From positions 1 to 27,610 of the IMG/VR virus record IMGVR_UViG_3300013132_000207: 27,610 nt of DNA; one strand, written 5' to 3'. Within the stretch, counting starts at the first letter, position 1, and every line of letters starts with the position of its first letter. This document shows, in pieces, positions 14,600 to 20,016 of the stretch. Origin of the DNA: a virus. The notes beneath the pieces are model-generated. The model did no database searches, was not told where the DNA came from, and saw only the letters and a program-made list of their open reading frames with translations. The translations under genes and the position numbers were made by a program.

Positions 14600-14682
14600 T
14601 TTTTAAAACGGATTCCACTGATTAAGGGTCGGTTTGTGTTGGGCGGGAGTCTGCGCGAGGGGTTGGGCTTGAGCGTGGGGCT

Positions 14683-14697
14683 GTACGATTCTCGTAC
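14683..14697 (+). repeat. Dispersed palindrome copy 1 (TTC centre)
   Basis: GTACGA-TTC-TCGTAC, flanked T/A. Intergenic; ends 15 bp upstream of the -35 box of the promoter for the 212-aa gene, a position suited to control of that promoter. Confidence 0.95.
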
Positions 14698-14712
14698 ACC
14701 TTGCGCGGTGAT

Positions 14713-14741
14713 TTGACCTTTTAGGGAAATGAGAGTAAACT
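14713..14741 (+). promoter_or_regulatory. Sigma-70-type promoter for the 212-aa gene
   Basis: TTGACC at 14713-14718, a 17-bp spacer, and TAAACT at 14736-14741; predicted start near 14748, 40 bases before the ATG. Good match to a vegetative promoter. It is bracketed by palindrome copy 1 upstream and by a second inverted repeat over the -10/+1. Confidence 0.75.
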
Positions 14742-14754
14742 GGGCTTTGCCCAG
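14740..14754. promoter_or_regulatory. Inverted repeat over -10/start of promoter (CTGGGC-TTT-GCCCAG)
   Basis: A perfect 6-3-6 palindrome overlapping the last -10 bases and the predicted transcription start. The location is that of a repressor operator; it could also be a hairpin at the very 5' end of the message. Confidence 0.5.
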
Positions 14755-14787
14755 ATAGGGTGAAATAAATAATCAAAGGATAAAGAA

Positions 14788-15426
14788 ATGGCAAAGAAAG
14801 AAAGCAAGGAAAAAGCAGTAAAGGCTTCACACGACATCAATGATGAATTAGTGCGCGAACTCTCAGCTTCCTTCAATGTGAATCTAGAGAAGGCTTGGTG
14901 GGTCAAGGCTCGCAAAATGGTAGAAGGTGGCGCGATTTCTGTCCGTGGTCTTAAAGCCACGATTAAGAAAGTTGAAGACACTTTCGGCAACGCTCCAACT
15001 CTGCGCTCTAGTTGGTCGCAATACTTCGAAGACGCTTTCAAGGTCGAGGACTTGGAAGGCGGTAAGGCTCAGACCCTCAAAGCAATTCTGAATCTTACGA
15101 TTCAAGCAACACGCAAGGCTGGCGGTCGCGATGGATTCGCTGAAGTCATTAAAGGTGTAAAGTCTTTTAGTGAACTTTCTAAGAAAGTTGAAAAGATGCC
15201 AAAGCCTCAAAGTGGGTCGAGCGATGAACCAAGCCTCGCTGACTTGAAAGCGGCGCTCGCTACTGCTGACGGCGTGGTGTTAATTGCGCTGACCGCGCTC
15301 CGCGCTCTTTCGGGAGATGAGGCGCTAGTCAAAGACTTCGGCAAGGCTGAGGAATTGGCTAAGGTCTTGAAGGCGATGACCGCCAACTCTCGCGCGGTTG
15401 CGGTTAGCCACCCTGTAAGCGCGTAA
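14788..15426 (+). CDS. 212-aa protein of unknown function, first gene of the plus-strand island
   Basis: A soluble Lys/Ala-rich protein, almost wholly helical by composition. Basic N-terminus (MAKKESKEKAVKAS), helical core with NVNLEKAWWVKARKMVEGG and TFGNAPTLRSSWSQYFEDAF at residues ~30-90, then a Ser/Pro linker (MPKPQSGSSDEP, ~138-150) and an Ala/Leu-rich C-terminal helix bundle. No cysteine motif, membrane segment or known catalytic signature. The ATG has AAGGA upstream and a good promoter 47 bp before it, and the gene ends in a strong hairpin, so it is its own transcription unit. An early, abundantly made protein is plausible (inferred). Confidence 0.8.
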   Translation: MAKKESKEKAVKASHDINDELVRELSASFNVNLEKAWWVKARKMVEGGAISVRGLKATIKKVEDTFGNAPTLRSSWSQYFEDAFKVEDLEGGKAQTLKAILNLTIQATRKAGGRDGFAEVIKGVKSFSELSKKVEKMPKPQSGSSDEPSLADLKAALATADGVVLIALTALRALSGDEALVKDFGKAEELAKVLKAMTANSRAVAVSHPVSA

Positions 15427-15438
15427 GTTCCAAGCGCC

Positions 15439-15468
15439 AAGCGCCTGACCCTTCGGGGTTGGGCGCTT
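15439..15468 (+). terminator. Strong hairpin after the 212-aa gene
   Basis: A 13-bp uninterrupted RNA stem (two G-U pairs) closed by a C-UUCG-G tetraloop, starting 12 bases after the stop codon. There is no U-run right after, which is common in actinobacterial terminators but lowers certainty. An AAGCGCC direct repeat precedes the stem. Confidence 0.6.
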
Positions 15469-15478
15469 CGTGCTGTCC

Positions 15479-15493
15479 GTACGATTATCGTAC
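15479..15493 (+). repeat. Dispersed palindrome copy 2 (TTA centre)
   Basis: GTACGA-TTA-TCGTAC; with CC/GG flanks this is a perfect 9-1-9 palindrome (15477-15495). Intergenic, 10 bp past the terminator hairpin. Confidence 0.95.
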
Positions 15494-15510
15494 GGCGCGC
15501 GCGAAAAAAA

Positions 15511-15696
15511 TTTGTGTTGAGAAAAGTTTGTGCCGAAGGCTCCTTTTGTGTTGGGTTTGTGTGGAGAGTTTGTGTGGAGAGGTTTGTGTCGGGTGAGTTT
15601 GTGTTGGGGTGGGTGATAGATATAGCCGTGTTGCCATGTACGAGAATCGTACGGCACTCACCACCACACCAATACCTAGCCGAAAGGTTTGTGTTG
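15511..15696 (+). repeat. Iteron-like cluster of TTTGTGT repeats
   Basis: Eight copies of TTTGTG(T/C)nG begin at 15511, 15527, 15545, 15556, 15569, 15583, 15598 and 15688. The first seven are 11-18 bp apart. The tract 15507-15610 is strongly G/T-rich on the plus strand. No gene is likely here: the overlapping minus-strand reading frame is a Thr/Gln/Pro low-complexity shadow of the repeats. Two more copies flank the island at 14633 and 20023. Binding sites for a protein, possibly replication-related, are a fair guess. Confidence 0.75.
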
Positions 15697-15727
15697 GTGG
15701 TGGTATAGAGATAGCCGAGTTGCCCAT
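15598..15727 (+). repeat. Pair of ~40-bp imperfect direct repeats
   Basis: 15598-15637 and 15688-15727 both read TTTGTGTTGG-GTGG-TATAGA-ATAGCCG-GTTGCC-AT with a few changes, exactly 90 bp apart. Palindrome copy 3 follows the first repeat directly and is absent after the second. Confidence 0.7.
15638..15652 (-). repeat. Dispersed palindrome copy 3 (GAA centre)
   Basis: GTACGA-GAA-TCGTAC, the reverse orientation of the TTC form. Intergenic, between the two 40-bp direct repeats. Confidence 0.95.
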
Positions 15728-15745
15728 AACTACACCCATTGGGAG

Positions 15746-15774
15746 TTGACTTAGCCACCCTACTATGGGATAAT
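15746..15774 (+). promoter_or_regulatory. Sigma-70-type promoter of the amidoligase operon
   Basis: TTGACT at 15746-15751, a 17-bp spacer, and GATAAT at 15769-15774; predicted start near 15781, one base before the first of three hairpins. It would drive the 15882-19849 gene string. Confidence 0.75.
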
Positions 15775-15781
15775 ATGCTTA

Positions 15782-15858
15782 CCGCAGGTCATACCTACGG
15801 GGAGTGGTGCTGTGCTGACCTTTATCCCAGCACGGCACTACTCGTACGATTCTCGTAC
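15782..15858 (+). promoter_or_regulatory. Leader RNA of three back-to-back hairpins
   Basis: Three stem-loops follow one another from the predicted transcription start: 15782-15800 (7 pairs, one mismatch, CAU loop), 15802-15843 (16 uninterrupted pairs with two G-U, 10-base loop) and 15844-15858 (palindrome copy 4). The ribosome site GAAAGGA and ATG 15882 come 24 bases later. No U-run, so not a plain terminator. I do not recognise a known riboswitch class. Confidence 0.6.
15844..15858 (+). repeat. Dispersed palindrome copy 4 (TTC centre)
   Basis: GTACGA-TTC-TCGTAC, directly abutting the 16-bp hairpin and 23 bp before the ATG at 15882. Confidence 0.95.
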
Positions 15859-15881
15859 ACCTACAACCGAAAGGAAAAGCA

Positions 15882-16199
15882 ATGGCTCGACTAGGCGTAG
15901 TTGATGAGAGTCTGAACTATCGGTGCGATACACCGATTAGGTTCAAGATTACCGATTACAACTTCCGACCAATTAAGACAAGCGATACGCGTATACGGCT
16001 ATTCGAATTGGAATCGTATCGCAACCTATGGGGCGCAGTTTATCCTATGGAGTTGATGGGTTGGAACAAGCGCAAGAAAATCAAGACTTGGGTGCTGGCT
16101 TGTAAAGACATTGACTACACCCAATACGCTTTACAAAGAGGGCAACTCTGCCCTTGTGATATATGTGGAAAGGAGAATCGTGTATCTGACTCAATATGA
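15882..16199 (+). CDS. 105-aa protein of unknown function with C-terminal Cys motif
   Basis: First gene after the operon promoter. Rich in Arg, Tyr and Ile, with a beta-like pattern at residues 15-60 (PIRFKITDYNFRP, RIRLFELESY). The C-terminal CPCDICG (three Cys) could bind a metal together with the Cys in LACKDI. Clear GAAAGGA ribosome site before the ATG. Overlaps the next gene by 20 bp. No family recognised. Confidence 0.7.
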   Translation: MARLGVVDESLNYRCDTPIRFKITDYNFRPIKTSDTRIRLFELESYRNLWGAVYPMELMGWNKRKKIKTWVLACKDIDYTQYALQRGQLCPCDICGKENRVSDSI

Positions 16200-16362
16200 T
16201 ATATTCGCAATTATCATAGCGTTGCTAGGTTTGATGTTTCTTGTATTCACAACCTTCCGCGCTAACGCTCGACTAACACGCCAGCGTGATGAGTGGCGAG
16301 GACAAGCCATCGAACTATACAACGAAGTCAAACTGTACGAGAATCGTACAGAGAGGATATAA
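16180..16362 (+). CDS. Small membrane protein (60 aa)
   Basis: One hydrophobic segment at residues ~8-24 (IFAIIIALLGLMFLVF) followed by a basic, helical cytoplasmic-type tail (RANARLTRQRDEWRGQAIELYNEV). I place the start at GTG 16180 because AAGGAG lies five bases upstream; a longer reading frame from 16111 has no ribosome site. Its last residues, LYENRT, are encoded by palindrome copy 5. Ends 1 base before the next ATG. Resembles Rz-like or other small phage membrane proteins only in layout; function unknown. Confidence 0.65.
   Translation: MYLTQYDIFAIIIALLGLMFLVFTTFRANARLTRQRDEWRGQAIELYNEVKLYENRTERI
16335..16349 (-). repeat. Dispersed palindrome copy 5 (GAA centre, coding)
   Basis: Inside the 60-aa gene near its 3' end, read as Y-E-N-R-T, and also 14 bp upstream of the amidoligase ATG, so it serves as coding sequence and as upstream region. 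Confidence 0.95.
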
Positions 16363-16363
16363 A

Positions 16364-17974
16364 ATGCCAAGCACCGCTTCAGTAGCAATACTTGGAACGG
16401 GGGTCTGCCCTTACTGCCAAGAGCCTAGTGTTTTATACACTCACTCGCTGGCACACACTATGCCTCTGGTTCATTGGACAGGTGATTCAATGACTAGGCG
16501 CTACGCTGGTTGCTCACCTTGTGAGCGCACCAATATCAGAAATAATTTTCGCTATGGTAGTGTACCAGAGGAAATGACGGCTGAACTAGAGATAATATCG
16601 GAACAGTTGCTTACGCTTACTCCGTATCAGACATCGAACTGCGAGTCCTGCGAGCGACCTTTGCTCGACAGTTCCAGTTTGAACTCGACATTGGAGCCTT
16701 ATATCGAAAATAGGTATATCGCTACACAGGCTCAGACAAATCTTGATGATGAGCGTACGATTATCGTACACCGCCGTTGTAGTTATACAACTAATTGTTG
16801 CGATAGAGTGCTTAGCAATTCATCACACGAGCCAATGTATGTAATATACAACAGAGAGGGTAGCCTATGTCGGCAATGCCTCGAGGTAGAAATGAGAGAG
16901 AGAGGACATAACTTCGAAGATGATTACTTCTTGTGTAATGGTTGCGACATCTATTGCCACAACACGGAAAGACGAAACTTCCGAAGTAGGCGATACTGTG
17001 AGAGTTGCCACGACAACAATGTTAGTTTCTGTGGTGAGTGTGAAACTGAATATTGGTCAGACGACTATCACAATTGTAATGAGAACAGCGAATCACTTAT
17101 CCTTGACTACGGCTACAAGCCACGCCCGATATTCTACGGAAAGAACTATAACCCGAAAGAGCGTTTATTTTTCGGGCTGGAACTCGAAGTCGAATCGGTC
17201 AGAGGAGATAGAGAGGACAACGCTAGTATCGTGAAAGAATTACTAGGCGATAGGGTCTATCTCAAAGAAGATGGCTCGCTTAGAAATGGCTTTGAGATAG
17301 TGTCGCACCCTCACTCACTCGAAGCCTTCCGCAAGGAGTTTAATTGGTCATCTTTCTCGCGCTTCCGCAATATCGGTCTGCGCTCTTGGGATACTGGCAC
17401 TTGCGGTATTCATATCCACATATCACGCGATGCTTTCGGTCCTGTGTACGAGAGTCGTACAGGGCAACCCTATGACCCTTGGTCTGATGATATGACTTAT
17501 GCTGAAAGGCAGAAGTATTACAGAACAAGACAGACACACGAACTCAAGTTCATCAAACTTATCTACGACAATGATAGGCAAGTCTGCCGACTTGCTGGGC
17601 GATATAGCGAGGACTATGCCAACTTCGCAGATAAGGGAAGGCTGACTCGTAAAGTCAGGCGTGGTGAAACTAGCGGTGGCAGACACGCTGCGGTTAATAC
17701 CGAGAACGAAAGCACTCTAGAAGTGCGCGTATTCAAGGGCTCTTTAGCACCTGAGCGCGTGTTAGCGTGTCTAGAGTTCGTACACTCTGCTGTTGAGTAC
17801 ACACGCGACCTCAAGGTTAGCGGGAATACTATTCCACTCAGCGCAGGTAAAGTTAAACCCACAGCCTTAACTTGGTTAGCATATTCAAGTTATGTCTATA
17901 CACACTCAGAGCAATACCCCAACTTAACTTCTCTAATGGTCAGAACCTTTGACCGAGATAATTTAGAGGAATAG
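16364..17974 (+). CDS. Putative amidoligase with N-terminal zinc-finger array
   Basis: 536 aa. The N-terminal half is full of paired cysteines (15/18, 50/53, 93/96, 145/146, 169/172, 191/194, 212/215, 223/226), suggesting several zinc ribbons or treble clefs. The C-terminal half matches the putative amidoligase family (Pfam Amidoligase_2; glutamine-synthetase-like fold): ELE at 273-275, DGS at 303-305, E311 in GFEIVSHP, HIHIS at 350-354, and ExR at 453-455 followed by a long helix. These enzymes are predicted to join a carboxylate to an amine using ATP. The next gene is a glutamine amidotransferase, a known partner type. Start ATG 16364 has GAGAGGA upstream; a longer frame from 16286 lacks one. 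Two palindrome copies (6 and 7) lie inside. Substrate unknown. Confidence 0.8.
   Translation: MPSTASVAILGTGVCPYCQEPSVLYTHSLAHTMPLVHWTGDSMTRRYAGCSPCERTNIRNNFRYGSVPEEMTAELEIISEQLLTLTPYQTSNCESCERPLLDSSSLNSTLEPYIENRYIATQAQTNLDDERTIIVHRRCSYTTNCCDRVLSNSSHEPMYVIYNREGSLCRQCLEVEMRERGHNFEDDYFLCNGCDIYCHNTERRNFRSRRYCESCHDNNVSFCGECETEYWSDDYHNCNENSESLILDYGYKPRPIFYGKNYNPKERLFFGLELEVESVRGDREDNASIVKELLGDRVYLKEDGSLRNGFEIVSHPHSLEAFRKEFNWSSFSRFRNIGLRSWDTGTCGIHIHISRDAFGPVYESRTGQPYDPWSDDMTYAERQKYYRTRQTHELKFIKLIYDNDRQVCRLAGRYSEDYANFADKGRLTRKVRRGETSGGRHAAVNTENESTLEVRVFKGSLAPERVLACLEFVHSAVEYTRDLKVSGNTIPLSAGKVKPTALTWLAYSSYVYTHSEQYPNLTSLMVRTFDRDNLEE
16755..16769 (+). repeat. Dispersed palindrome copy 6 (TTA centre, coding)
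   Basis: Inside the amidoligase gene, the only coding copy in a different frame (read as R-T-I-I-V, residues 131-135), between two cysteine pairs. Confidence 0.95.
17446..17460 (-). repeat. Dispersed palindrome copy 7 (GAG centre, coding)
   Basis: Inside the amidoligase domain, read as V-Y-E-S-R-T (residues 361-366), eight residues after the HIHIS motif, probably a surface loop. Confidence 0.95.
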
Positions 17975-17975
17975 T

Positions 17976-17990
17976 GTACGATTCTCGTAC
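17976..17990 (+). repeat. Dispersed palindrome copy 8 (TTC centre)
   Basis: In the 32-bp gap between amidoligase and amidotransferase, 1 base after the stop and 16 bases before the next ATG, just upstream of the AAAGGA ribosome site. Confidence 0.95.
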
Positions 17991-18006
17991 AGAAAGGATA
18001 TGAACA

Positions 18007-18897
18007 ATGTGTATGCTATGCGTAGTTCCTCCTAATGTTATCCCTGATAAAGATATGCTGGAGAACTCTTGCTTAAATAATCCACACGGATTCGGTTATG
18101 CTATCGCTATACCGAAGGAGGAAAGAATACAGGTCTTTACCTCTATGAACGCTGATGAGTGTATCGCTAGGTTTCTATTCGACAGAGCCTTATACCCTGA
18201 AGCACACGCTATATTCCACGCTAGATATGCTACTCACGGAGCGAGTAATCTAGCCAACTGCCACCCGTTCAAGGTTATTGATGATAAGACATACCTTGCT
18301 CACAATGGTGTCTTACCTATCTTGGAATCTAACAAAGATGATAGGAGCGATACCCGTATATTCGCTGAGGACTTGATGCCTGCCATCGGCGGTGTTGTAG
18401 CCCTAGACAATTCGCAAGTATGGAATATGCTTGAGGATTTTACCACAGGCTCTAAGGTTGCTTTTCTATCAGTAGACCCGAGAGCAAAGCACGAACTCTA
18501 TCTATTACACGAAGAGAAGGGACATTTCGACAAGAGTGGCGTGTGGTGGTCTAACGATACTTGCTATCTAGACTATGCGTATCCGTATGCTTACAACAGG
18601 TATATGTCCCATTACTTACACGACACCAAAGATGTGGAGAAGGGTATTCCTAATGATGACCCTGATACTTACTTCCTTGAGTGCCACACTTGCGACTCAG
18701 TACAAGAGTATTGGGAAGCATTGAAAAAAGGTAATACTTCTTTCTGCGGTACTTGCGGTACTTGCTATGACTGTAATACGCACAAGAATAACTGCCTATG
18801 CTATCAAGGAAGGCAGGTGTACGATTCTCGTACAGCCAAGCACGGCTTGATAAAAAATCCAGAAACCGAGATACCAGCGTGGGGGTGGTATTACTAA
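18007..18897 (+). CDS. Class II glutamine amidotransferase with C-terminal zinc ribbon
   Basis: 296 aa. An Ntn-type amidotransferase releases ammonia from glutamine with an N-terminal Cys; here Cys2 would be exposed after Met removal. Family marks in order: HGFGYA 27-32, R73 in HARYATHG, NCHPF 84-88, AHNG 98-101, SDTRIF 114-119. A second domain has CHTC at 226-229 and C247/C250/C253/C256/C263/C265, a likely zinc module. Only 32 bp after the amidoligase gene, it is a natural ammonia supplier for it, though it could also act alone. AAAGGA precedes the ATG. Residues 271-276 (VYDSRT) are encoded by palindrome copy 9. Confidence 0.88.
   Translation: MCMLCVVPPNVIPDKDMLENSCLNNPHGFGYAIAIPKEERIQVFTSMNADECIARFLFDRALYPEAHAIFHARYATHGASNLANCHPFKVIDDKTYLAHNGVLPILESNKDDRSDTRIFAEDLMPAIGGVVALDNSQVWNMLEDFTTGSKVAFLSVDPRAKHELYLLHEEKGHFDKSGVWWSNDTCYLDYAYPYAYNRYMSHYLHDTKDVEKGIPNDDPDTYFLECHTCDSVQEYWEALKKGNTSFCGTCGTCYDCNTHKNNCLCYQGRQVYDSRTAKHGLIKNPETEIPAWGWYY
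18819..18833 (+). repeat. Dispersed palindrome copy 9 (TTC centre, coding)
   Basis: Near the 3' end of the amidotransferase gene, read as Y-D-S-R-T immediately after the zinc-ribbon domain. Confidence 0.95.
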
Positions 18898-19062
18898 ATG
18901 ATAAATGGTATGTTAGTCAATGGCTTCATAGTACGAGCCAAAGAAGGCAACCTCAGTTATGGCTTGTTTCCTAGCGTGGAGGCGGCAAATGCGTGGGTAG
19001 AGATGATGACGATTCCTGTCGCTATCGAACCTGTGTACGCGCCGACTTTTAATCGTGGGTAA
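18898..19062 (+). CDS. 54-aa protein of unknown function
   Basis: Starts on the base after the amidotransferase stop (TAA-ATG) and overlaps the next gene by 8 bp. The peptide begins MINGMLVNGFIVRAKEG and continues with SYGLFPSVEAANAWVEMM, a small strand-strand-helix pattern. No ribosome site of its own is clear, so it probably relies on re-initiation. A second in-frame ATG is at codon 5. Function unknown; the tight packing is the main support. Confidence 0.55.
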   Translation: MINGMLVNGFIVRAKEGNLSYGLFPSVEAANAWVEMMTIPVAIEPVYAPTFNRG

Positions 19063-19276
19063 AAAGCCGTGGAAGCCTGTACCACCGACTCCCTACTATT
19101 ACAGTAAGCGAGCCGAAATGTTTTCCGCTAGTGCTGATAAGGCGCTAGCGGAGGGCAGAATCATCGATAGTTCTGCTCTGATGCTCAAAGCCATTGAGTA
19201 TCGTACCCTAGCGGGGCAACTCCCGTTAGAGAAAGAAATAAATGACGACAATATACAACGAAAGGGAGTGCTATAA
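19055..19276 (+). CDS. 73-aa helical protein of unknown function
   Basis: GTG start overlapping the previous stop. A Pro/Lys/Tyr N-terminus (GKKPWKPVPPTPYYY) leads into one long helix pair (residues ~18-58; YSKRAEMFSASADKALAEG, ALMLKAIEYRTLAGQL) like a single TPR-type hairpin. Overlaps the following zinc-ribbon gene by 35 bp. Function unknown. Confidence 0.6.
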   Translation: MGKKPWKPVPPTPYYYSKRAEMFSASADKALAEGRIIDSSALMLKAIEYRTLAGQLPLEKEINDDNIQRKGVL

Positions 19277-19403
19277 ATGTGGCGTGGCTTTAGTTGTCCC
19301 ACGCTATGATGATAGTGCTTATTCGTACTGTTCAGCGTGTGCGTTCTCTAAGTTAGGAGTGTACGATTCTCGTACACTTGATGTGGGTGATGATGATAGA
19401 TAA
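19242..19403 (+). CDS. 53-aa zinc-ribbon protein
   Basis: ATG 19242. Cys pairs C10/C13 (ECYKCG) and C30/C33 (YCSACA) separated by 16 residues make a classic small zinc ribbon. After it, GVYDSRT at 39-45 is encoded by palindrome copy 10, then an acidic tail (DVGDDDR). It overlaps the preceding gene by 35 bp and ends 4 bp before my preferred WhiB start. Probably a small nucleic-acid- or protein-binding factor; target unknown. Confidence 0.65.
   Translation: MTTIYNERECYKCGVALVVPRYDDSAYSYCSACAFSKLGVYDSRTLDVGDDDR
19361..19375 (+). repeat. Dispersed palindrome copy 10 (TTC centre, coding)
   Basis: In the zinc-ribbon gene, read as Y-D-S-R-T, and 32 bp upstream of the WhiB ATG at 19408 (5 bp before the alternative ATG 19381). 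Confidence 0.95.
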
Positions 19404-19407
19404 TCAT

Positions 19408-19734
19408 ATGCCCGTATTCGAAGAGAAAGCGCTATGCGCTGAATATCCAGCAGAGTGGTGGTTCCCGCAGGAAGTCGCGGGAACTTCTACTCAATGGTCG
19501 CGTACTCCAGACGCAATGAAGGCTAGGAAAATCTGCGAAGGTTGCCCTGCCCTTATGGAGTGCCGAAATTACGCTCTTGCCTACTCAGGTTTGGCTGGCA
19601 TTTGGGGAGGTATGGACTACCAAGAGCGTAGAGTAATACAGAGCACACTCGGTATCACGCCCATTTTTATGATGGACACTTACGATACTAGAGTGCCGAA
19701 AAAACCGCTAGATGAGGAGGTATCATTTGATTGA
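19408..19734 (+). CDS. whiB: WhiB-family iron-sulfur transcription regulator
   Basis: 108 aa. Four cluster cysteines C10, C43, C46 and C52 in the family layout (C - CxxCPxxxxC), the G-I-W-G-G turn at 64-68, and the WWFP after the first Cys. WhiB proteins bind a 4Fe-4S cluster and act with the actinobacterial primary sigma factor. Phage-encoded WhiB is known (mycobacteriophage TM4 gp49 interferes with host WhiB2). The start is uncertain: ATG 19408 lies 4 bp after the previous stop, ATG 19381 would add nine residues and overlap; neither has a clear ribosome site. It may regulate host or late phage promoters, and could be connected to the palindromes (inference). Confidence 0.92.
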   Translation: MPVFEEKALCAEYPAEWWFPQEVAGTSTQWSRTPDAMKARKICEGCPALMECRNYALAYSGLAGIWGGMDYQERRVIQSTLGITPIFMMDTYDTRVPKKPLDEEVSFD

Positions 19735-19849
19735 AAATAATGATGAGTACTTTCCTTATGAAAGCGTAGGAGAACAATTAGCACTCATATTCTGGATACT
19801 TTACGGAGTATCTGGAATCTTTGGACTCCTATTGTTAATAGCAATATAA
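19727..19849 (+). CDS. 40-aa membrane protein, TTG start
   Basis: TTG at 19727 with an excellent GAGGAGG seven bases upstream, overlapping the WhiB stop by 8 bp. An acidic N-terminus (MIENNDEYFPYE) is followed by one membrane helix (residues ~19-40, ALIFWILYGVSGIFGLLLLIAI) that runs to the very end. Last gene of the plus-strand operon. Function unknown; holin-like or regulatory micropeptide possible. Confidence 0.65.
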   Translation: MIENNDEYFPYESVGEQLALIFWILYGVSGIFGLLLLIAI

Positions 19850-19856
19850 CCTAACT

Positions 19857-19871
19857 GTACGAGAATCGTAC
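19857..19871 (-). repeat. Dispersed palindrome copy 11 (GAA centre)
   Basis: The last copy, 7 bp after the final island gene and directly abutting the stop codon of the convergent minus-strand gene; the terminator follows. Confidence 0.95.
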
Positions 19872-19872
19872 A

Positions 19873-20016
19873 CTAAGCCTCTACCGCTTCGGCGGTAGGG
19901 GTTTTTTTAATGCCTTCACACTCACACCCTGTACAATATTGATGTAGTTCTCTAGCCAATAATTCCTGTCCTAGTTCGCGCTTGTGCGCTTCCCACCCAC
20001 AAGACGCGCACTTCAC
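19873..20016 (-). CDS. 47-aa zinc-finger protein
   Basis: GTG start overlapping the upstream stop as GTGA. CxxC at residues 3-6 (KCASCGW) and C28/C31/C33 (YCTGCEC) separated by a helix (EAHKRELGQELLARELHQ). The last codons coincide with the plus-strand terminator stem. It is the final gene of the long leftward replication operon. Small actinophage zinc proteins of this kind are common; function unknown. Confidence 0.68.
   Translation of the reverse strand: MKCASCGWEAHKRELGQELLARELHQYCTGCECEGIKKTPTAEAVEA
19878..19908 (+). terminator. Intrinsic terminator of the plus-strand operon
   Basis: A 10-bp stem (CTACCGC/GCGGTAG core) closed by UUCG and followed by seven T. A textbook terminator on the plus strand. 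It lies wholly within the 3' coding part of a convergent minus-strand gene, where it encodes part of the peptide TPTAEAVEA. Confidence 0.92.

Follow-up and report, generated by a model that had tools for sequence, protein, structure and literature searches.

Dispersed operator arrays that evolve together with their repressors have been detailed for cluster A actinophages. In these temperate phages, including L5, Bxb1, and TipsytheTRex, each genome carries 20-30 sites read by a monomeric protein with a helix-turn-helix and a stoperator domain (PMC6550527, PMC9283540), and the sites are 13 bp long, asymmetric, and oriented with transcription (PMC9283540). In freshwater phages from the environment, a protein family that is unannotated and apparently unrelated seems to follow this logic on palindromic sites. 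The locus described here lies in the IMG/VR virus record IMGVR_UViG_3300013132_000207, whose 27,610 bases constitute the window, and comprises eleven 15-bp palindromes, GTACGA-N3-TCGTAC, within a plus-strand gene island, together with the first gene of that island (14788-15426, plus strand), which encodes fam10, a 212-amino-acid, all-helical orphan protein proposed as the cognate DNA binder. Because fam10 and the array share their presence and absence across related phages, and because fam10 residues covary with site bases, fam10 is very probably the reader of the sites; its dimer would recognize the palindrome with one subunit per S-Y-G-N-N-N-G-R half-site, each inserting helix 74-87 into the major groove so that residue 78 meets base 3.

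The resemblance to cluster A lies in the many dispersed copies of one short site, their placement near gene junctions, a phage-encoded binder, and the covariation of site and binder between related phages, giving distinct specificities; specificity changes at 80-88% terminase identity recall the cluster A immunity types (PMC6550527). Unlike the cluster A sites, however, those of fam10 are 15-bp palindromes, are orientation-free, number 5-12 per phage, and are restricted to one operon in the window and in records of 38-42 kb. In addition, fam10 matches no recognized family in PHROGs, Pfam, or NCBIfam, and neither integrase nor ParA (PF00589, PF00239, PF13614) was found in nine records, which are possibly incomplete. 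Because the symmetry and distribution of the sites depart from cluster A and the binder has no family match, the array would represent a palindromic, one-operon counterpart of the cluster A stoperators in logic rather than a member of that system. Several palindromic sites of 15-16 bp, reading by a dimer (as proposed for fam10), and a specificity that can diversify are likewise features of ParB-parS, from which the present locus differs in that ParA was not found, no ParB/CTPase domain was matched among 51 fam10 members in Pfam and NCBIfam, and the sites are spread through an operon of other genes.

The nearest cultured backbone relative found is Planktophila phage LanE43AprF5 (OX376641; PMC10202952). 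Its terminase is 57.5% identical, and it shares the gene order around the island along with WhiB and sigma-like genes, but its island contains no fam10, amidoligase, GATase (class II glutamine amidotransferase), GTACGA site, or comparable array. We infer the host of the present phages solely from this cultured backbone relative and from WhiB; the host of the former, 'Ca. Planktophila', is among the most abundant freshwater bacterial groups. No description of such an array/binder system was found in the searched literature, a search that left most subscription papers outside.

Eleven palindromes in one plus-strand island

The window is the complete virus record, and the question of what lies in the remainder of the genome could be addressed only through relatives. 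Within the window, GTACGANNNTCGTAC has exactly 11 matches with up to two mismatches allowed, all with perfect arms and together spanning 14683-19871, compared with a mean of 0.68 and a maximum of 3 in dinucleotide shuffles. An earlier note on this DNA had described 11 exact-arm copies restricted to the plus-strand island, and the remainder of the window indeed yielded none, also when two mismatches were tolerated; its centre counts (TTC/GAA in eight copies, TTA in two, GAG in one) were also reproduced. The eight copies it credited with T/A outer flanks became seven on recounting (T on the left, A on the right), the other four being flanked by C/G, T/G, C/A, and C/A.

The island genes are on the plus strand and nearly all remaining genes on the minus strand. 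As had been described, the array starts before the first island promoter and ends before its terminator, both being consensus matches only. Site 1 (14683-14697, GTACGATTCTCGTAC) is located 15 bp upstream of the promoter-like pair TTGACC (14713) and TAAACT (14736-14741), which forms the fam10 promoter-like element (14713-14741, plus strand), and site 11 (19857-19871), past the last island open reading frame (ORF), stops 3 bp short of the stem of an intrinsic terminator-like hairpin at the island end (19875-19904, plus strand). The intervening sites, to which, like these two, no strand is assigned, follow the genes closely: site 2 (15479-15493) is 52 nt past the fam10 stop, site 3 (15638-15652) lies in the interval between fam10 and the amidoligase gene, site 4 (15844-15858) is immediately upstream of the Shine-Dalgarno sequence of the ORF at 15882, site 5 (16335-16349) immediately precedes the amidoligase start, sites 6 (16755-16769) and 7 (17446-17460) are within the amidoligase gene, site 8 (17976-17990) directly follows its stop codon, site 9 (18819-18833) is at the 3' end of the GATase gene, and site 10 (19361-19375) is likewise at the 3' end of its ORF, that of the zinc ribbon, and precedes WhiB.

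Conservation and diversification of the sites

The relatives are metagenomic IMG/VR contigs, some of them truncated, and an array that runs off its contig is shorter for that reason. Scanning IMG/VR with the exact 15-mer (TTC or TTA centre) recovered dozens of contigs with several copies; single 15-mer matches in many viral contigs were attributed to chance or contig ends. Full records contain one array each, in which as many as 12 sites are spread across ~4 to 5.7 kb; the rest of these contigs, the longest of 42.5 kb, has no site. The array is always in the same plus-strand island, with a constant gene order of terminase (minus strand), fam10, small ORFs, amidoligase-like, GATase-like, small ORFs, and WhiB (plus strand), and sigma-like (minus strand). 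In 40-kb relatives, which the earlier note had suggested scanning, the sites again lie in one island only, and the conservation at matching positions that it had asked about was found as well. Across 36 complete islands, 319 sites fall inside and 1 outside (4-12 per island), and a site starts 2-4 nt past the amidoligase stop in 32 of them, across half-site types. Spacing in these islands is more even than random (coefficient of variation 0.53 vs 0.91), with the qualification that site positions are partly homologous between loci and the draws are not independent. Comparison with two relatives whose islands are 88-89% identical in nucleotides shows 131 of 132 arm bases unaltered, while agreement drops to 23/33 and 26/33 in the three-base centres and to 86% in the 20-bp flanks. 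Beyond these phages, a 17-mer scan of bacterial and archaeal GTDB contigs found no arrays and only 35 scattered single matches in unrelated taxa, read as chance; no terminase relatives were found in GTDB genome contigs, and a near-identity search of annotated phages gave no match.

Scans with terminase, amidoligase, and GATase alignments, which find relatives independently of the sites, revealed phages with the same backbone and island that carry different repeated palindromes. The alternative half-sites with a 3-bp spacer are GTACGG, GTAGGA, GCAGGA, GTTGGA, GTCTGA, GTGCGA, GTTCGG, GGTCGG, GTTAGG, GTGGGG, and GCTCGG, and GTTTGG occurs with a 4-bp spacer. In three loci (L204, L281, and L288), the automatic search missed a GTACGA array that is weaker and whose 4-bp spacer is TATA. 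Altogether 13 half-site types are known, 12 of which were seen with their own fam10 version and one (GCTCGG) without its fam10. Every type fits G-N-N-N-G-R, the sites of related phages occupy the same island positions, and the centre is usually TWA when base 6 is A and AWT when it is G. Different operators occur in phages 80-88% identical in terminase, and all copies within an array change together with fam10. The many near-identical copies in both coding and non-coding DNA might suggest a mobile or drifting repeat family of no regulatory role, but positions are kept across half-site types, the sites respect the limits of the transcription unit, and the whole array changes jointly with fam10; this explanation was rejected on the conserved positions and is given practically no weight.

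The consensus of 247 distinct exact sites, S-Y-GTACGA-TWA-TCGTAC-R-S, bears on whether the palindrome acts as DNA or as RNA. Hairpins in the transcript, serving processing, stability, or protein binding, deserve consideration because the transcript of any palindrome is able to fold back on itself and the two-arm changes between types preserve pairing. However, the -1/+1 flanks vary independently (T/A 114, C/A 77, C/G 26, T/G 26; chi-square p 0.27) and show no pairing preference (C.A 77 vs T.G 26), nor do those at -2/+2, where non-pairing combinations (109) exceed pairing ones (75). Complementarity reaches the central base (TWA or AWT, with positions 7 and 9 mostly complementary), which would leave a hairpin with a one-base loop. 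Centre orientation is also mixed, and Rfam returned no match. Because the flanks are independent and complementarity extends to the central base, where RNA needs a loop, a DNA site for a protein dimer is supported over an RNA loop; the hairpin explanation, rejected on flank independence, is considered highly improbable.

fam10 and the residue-base code

Contigs retrieved by fam10 protein alignment alone all carry GTACGA-N3-TCGTAC nearby (34/34). Among 62 non-redundant loci spanning terminase to GATase, with an array defined as at least four exact copies, an array is present in 44 of the 45 loci with fam10 and in none of the 17 without it (Fisher 2e-14), the lone fam10 locus lacking a qualifying array being L204, with its weaker GTACGA-N4 array. 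In array-free islands, fam10 alone of the shared families is missing throughout, and WhiB, sigma, GATase, amidoligase, fam9, and zinc ribbon all occur. Another binder, whether WhiB, the phage sigma-like protein, a small island ORF, or a host regulator, might be suspected in that several of these genes lie in or adjoin the island. Nevertheless, WhiB and the sigma-like protein are each present in all nine testable array-free islands, the zinc ribbon in seven, and fam9 in four, and a host protein cannot explain operator differences at 80-88% terminase likeness or their match to fam10 type; bacterial and archaeal genomes, moreover, show scattered single matches in place of arrays. A binder other than fam10 is accordingly rated very unlikely, and, because both WhiB and the sigma-like protein occur in array-free phages, fam10 is very probably the cognate binder instead of either. 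The palindromic, stoperator-like logic and the protein-dimer site anticipated in the earlier note are upheld, unlike its remark that no obvious repressor gene could be seen and its naming of WhiB and the sigma-like protein as possible binders: the first island gene is the sole conserved family that tracks the array, and the two named proteins persist in nine of nine island-bearing loci that have neither fam10 nor array.

fam10 is predicted to be helical with a predicted local distance difference test score (pLDDT) of 86; helices 52-66 and 74-87 are well predicted, the latter with pLDDT >90. Sequence comparisons with PHROGs (15 members), Pfam and NCBIfam (51 members), PADLOC, and PDB gave nothing credible, and tblastn found no fam10 in annotated phages. 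Fold searches with two models returned no known DNA-binding fold, only weak and inconsistent ParB, Noc, and clamp-loader collar matches that were not used as evidence. A 243-amino-acid predicted viral protein in BFVD, A0A6G6XMX5, matched the fam10 model with a Foldseek probability of 0.99 (E 0.013, TM 0.38, 14% identity) and may be remotely related to fam10, in this case from a cultured phage.

Analysis of 25 clusters (60% identity, same half-site) suggests a recognition code. Residue 78 has the strongest association with base 3 of all fam10 columns (z 7.3): Q78 occurs with A3 in 16 of 16 clusters and with no other base, and otherwise R and K are found with G3, E with C3, and S, G/A, P, N, and once K with T3. 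Pairing of Gln with A, Arg or Lys with G, and Glu with C corresponds to familiar side-chain/base contacts. Residue 79 tracks base 4 in part (Y/F with C, D/H with G) and was rejected as a full rule, the fit being only partial. The fam10 of the window, with Q78 and Y79 on helix 74-87, matches the A3 and C4 of its half-site. No clean single determinant was found among fam10 columns for bases 2 and 6, and many columns correlate with base 6 because it splits two large subfamilies. A tree built without columns 78 and 79 requires a minimum of 11 changes in half-site type and of five in base 3, and A3 and Q78 change together in three of three phylogenetically independent pairs, too few for significance. 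The sister set of GTAGGA/GCAGGA (Q78) and GTTGGA (P78) displays the switch among proteins 70-74% identical. The GCTCGG array lies on L370/L468 (contig 3300012665_000361), where fam10 is off the contig end; for position 78 of this protein the code predicts N, P, or a small residue, K being less likely.

Possible function and neighbouring elements

It is most likely, judging from sequence patterns, that fam10 acts as an autoregulatory repressor or roadblock, and the favoured explanation as a whole, in which the sites are operators through which fam10 represses its own operon, is held with moderate confidence. fam10 dimers would occupy 5-12 evenly spread sites from the fam10 promoter through the operon to the terminator, and repression that acts on the promoter and also obstructs polymerase during elongation is given roughly even chances. 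The plus-strand module, comprising amidoligase, GATase, and WhiB, would thereby be shut off or held down during infection. A series of roadblocks would fit the placement of sites at gene ends, before Shine-Dalgarno sequences, inside long genes, and ahead of the terminator. Because at least 11 operator-type changes separate relatives, fam10 is further proposed to act on co-infecting phages of the same type and not on other types, which would in effect constitute an immunity type. Since integrase was not found, any such immunity would, speculatively, have to act in lytic co-infection or a carrier state. Whether a new DNA-binding family with a readable code spans one operon, promoter and terminator included, by way of identical palindromes in phages showing no sign of lysogeny, with at least a dozen mutually blind types forming a self/non-self system between co-infecting lytic phages as opposed to a lysogeny switch, is more tentative, and the proposal is more doubtful than probable.

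Several observations weigh against this explanation. The GTTTGG phages combine K78 with T3, an exception to the rule; just three independent contrasts lie behind the residue-base link, and relatedness may yet contribute to it. The helix-turn-helix that we infer for fam10 finds no known DNA-binding fold in fold searches. Most phages have site 1 upstream of the fam10 promoter, but in four (L276, L286, L293, and L302) it is downstream, a variable placement that leaves classical promoter occlusion unsupported and argues against a fixed-geometry activator without proving repression. A roadblock alone poorly explains the site after the last gene, and a lysogenic role is unsupported because integrase and ParA were not found.

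An activator or antitermination factor that keeps polymerase going through the sole plus-strand operon would fit a site 1 that is often 13-29 bp upstream of the -35 element and, in the window, centred near -58, a class I activator position, as well as the sites that precede several Shine-Dalgarno sequences. The distance to the promoter varies, however, up to the downstream placements just mentioned, a site past the last gene would be useless for activation, and RNA-level action is disfavoured by the independent flanks; such a role is regarded as improbable. Only slightly better placed, and still unlikely, is a centromere-binding or DNA-organizing function, in which the array, as a parS-like or condensation site, would serve to shape, segregate, or mark the region and effects on transcription would be secondary. 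Even spacing over ~5 kb, sites within genes and at both island ends, and the fact that partition incompatibility also fits diversified specificity speak for this possibility, as do the best, very weak fold matches of the first fam10 model, to ParB and Noc (Z 3.4, root-mean-square deviation 6.8). Conversely, the better model (pLDDT 86) places ParB and Noc among unrelated rows, no ParB family match was obtained in Pfam, PHROGs, or NCBIfam, PF13614 matched none of the nine possibly incomplete records and all 14 control genomes, and the sites follow gene junctions and the transcription unit. With 13 half-site types and over 50 pairs of protein and site, these phages amount to a natural experiment on how a protein and ~10 scattered sites change specificity jointly, with testable contacts predicted; if binding is true, the pairs would provide an orthogonal binder set and a handle on regulation in phages without genetics.

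All other genes and elements of the island are likewise on the plus strand. A further promoter-like element, TTGACT-17-GATAAT (15746-15774, consensus match only), precedes a 105-amino-acid ORF with no assigned function (15882-16199). The 536-amino-acid amidoligase-like protein (16364-17974; phrog_16683, with a weak match to amidoligase phrog_7469) and the GATase-like protein (18007-18897; PF13230) are followed by the small conserved ORF fam9 (19055-19276), the small zinc-ribbon-like ORF (19242-19403), and the WhiB-like protein (19378-19734; PF02467). The amidoligase-like and GATase-like genes (16364-18897) are always neighbours in these islands and are found in array-free relatives too, and a possible role of the pair is cell-wall or peptide modification; annotated relatives of the GATase occur in Mycobacterium phage Marvin-like phages. 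A second repeat, GTTTGTGT(T/C/G)GG, is present at 14632, 15582, 15597, 15687, 20022, and 24993, on the plus strand only. Eight relatives have copies at similar places, near site 1, in the gap between fam10 and amidoligase, just beyond the island, and often ~5 kb further, with no opposite-strand copies in any of the nine records. The repeat might serve the phage sigma-like protein as a promoter or act as a strand-specific signal for replication or packaging. The leader of the window after the fam10 -10 element (14742-14787) is divergent from that common to many relatives, which is built around ATTCTCTTA(G/T), sometimes includes a short inverted repeat (TTATCA...TGATAA), and may form a leader structure.

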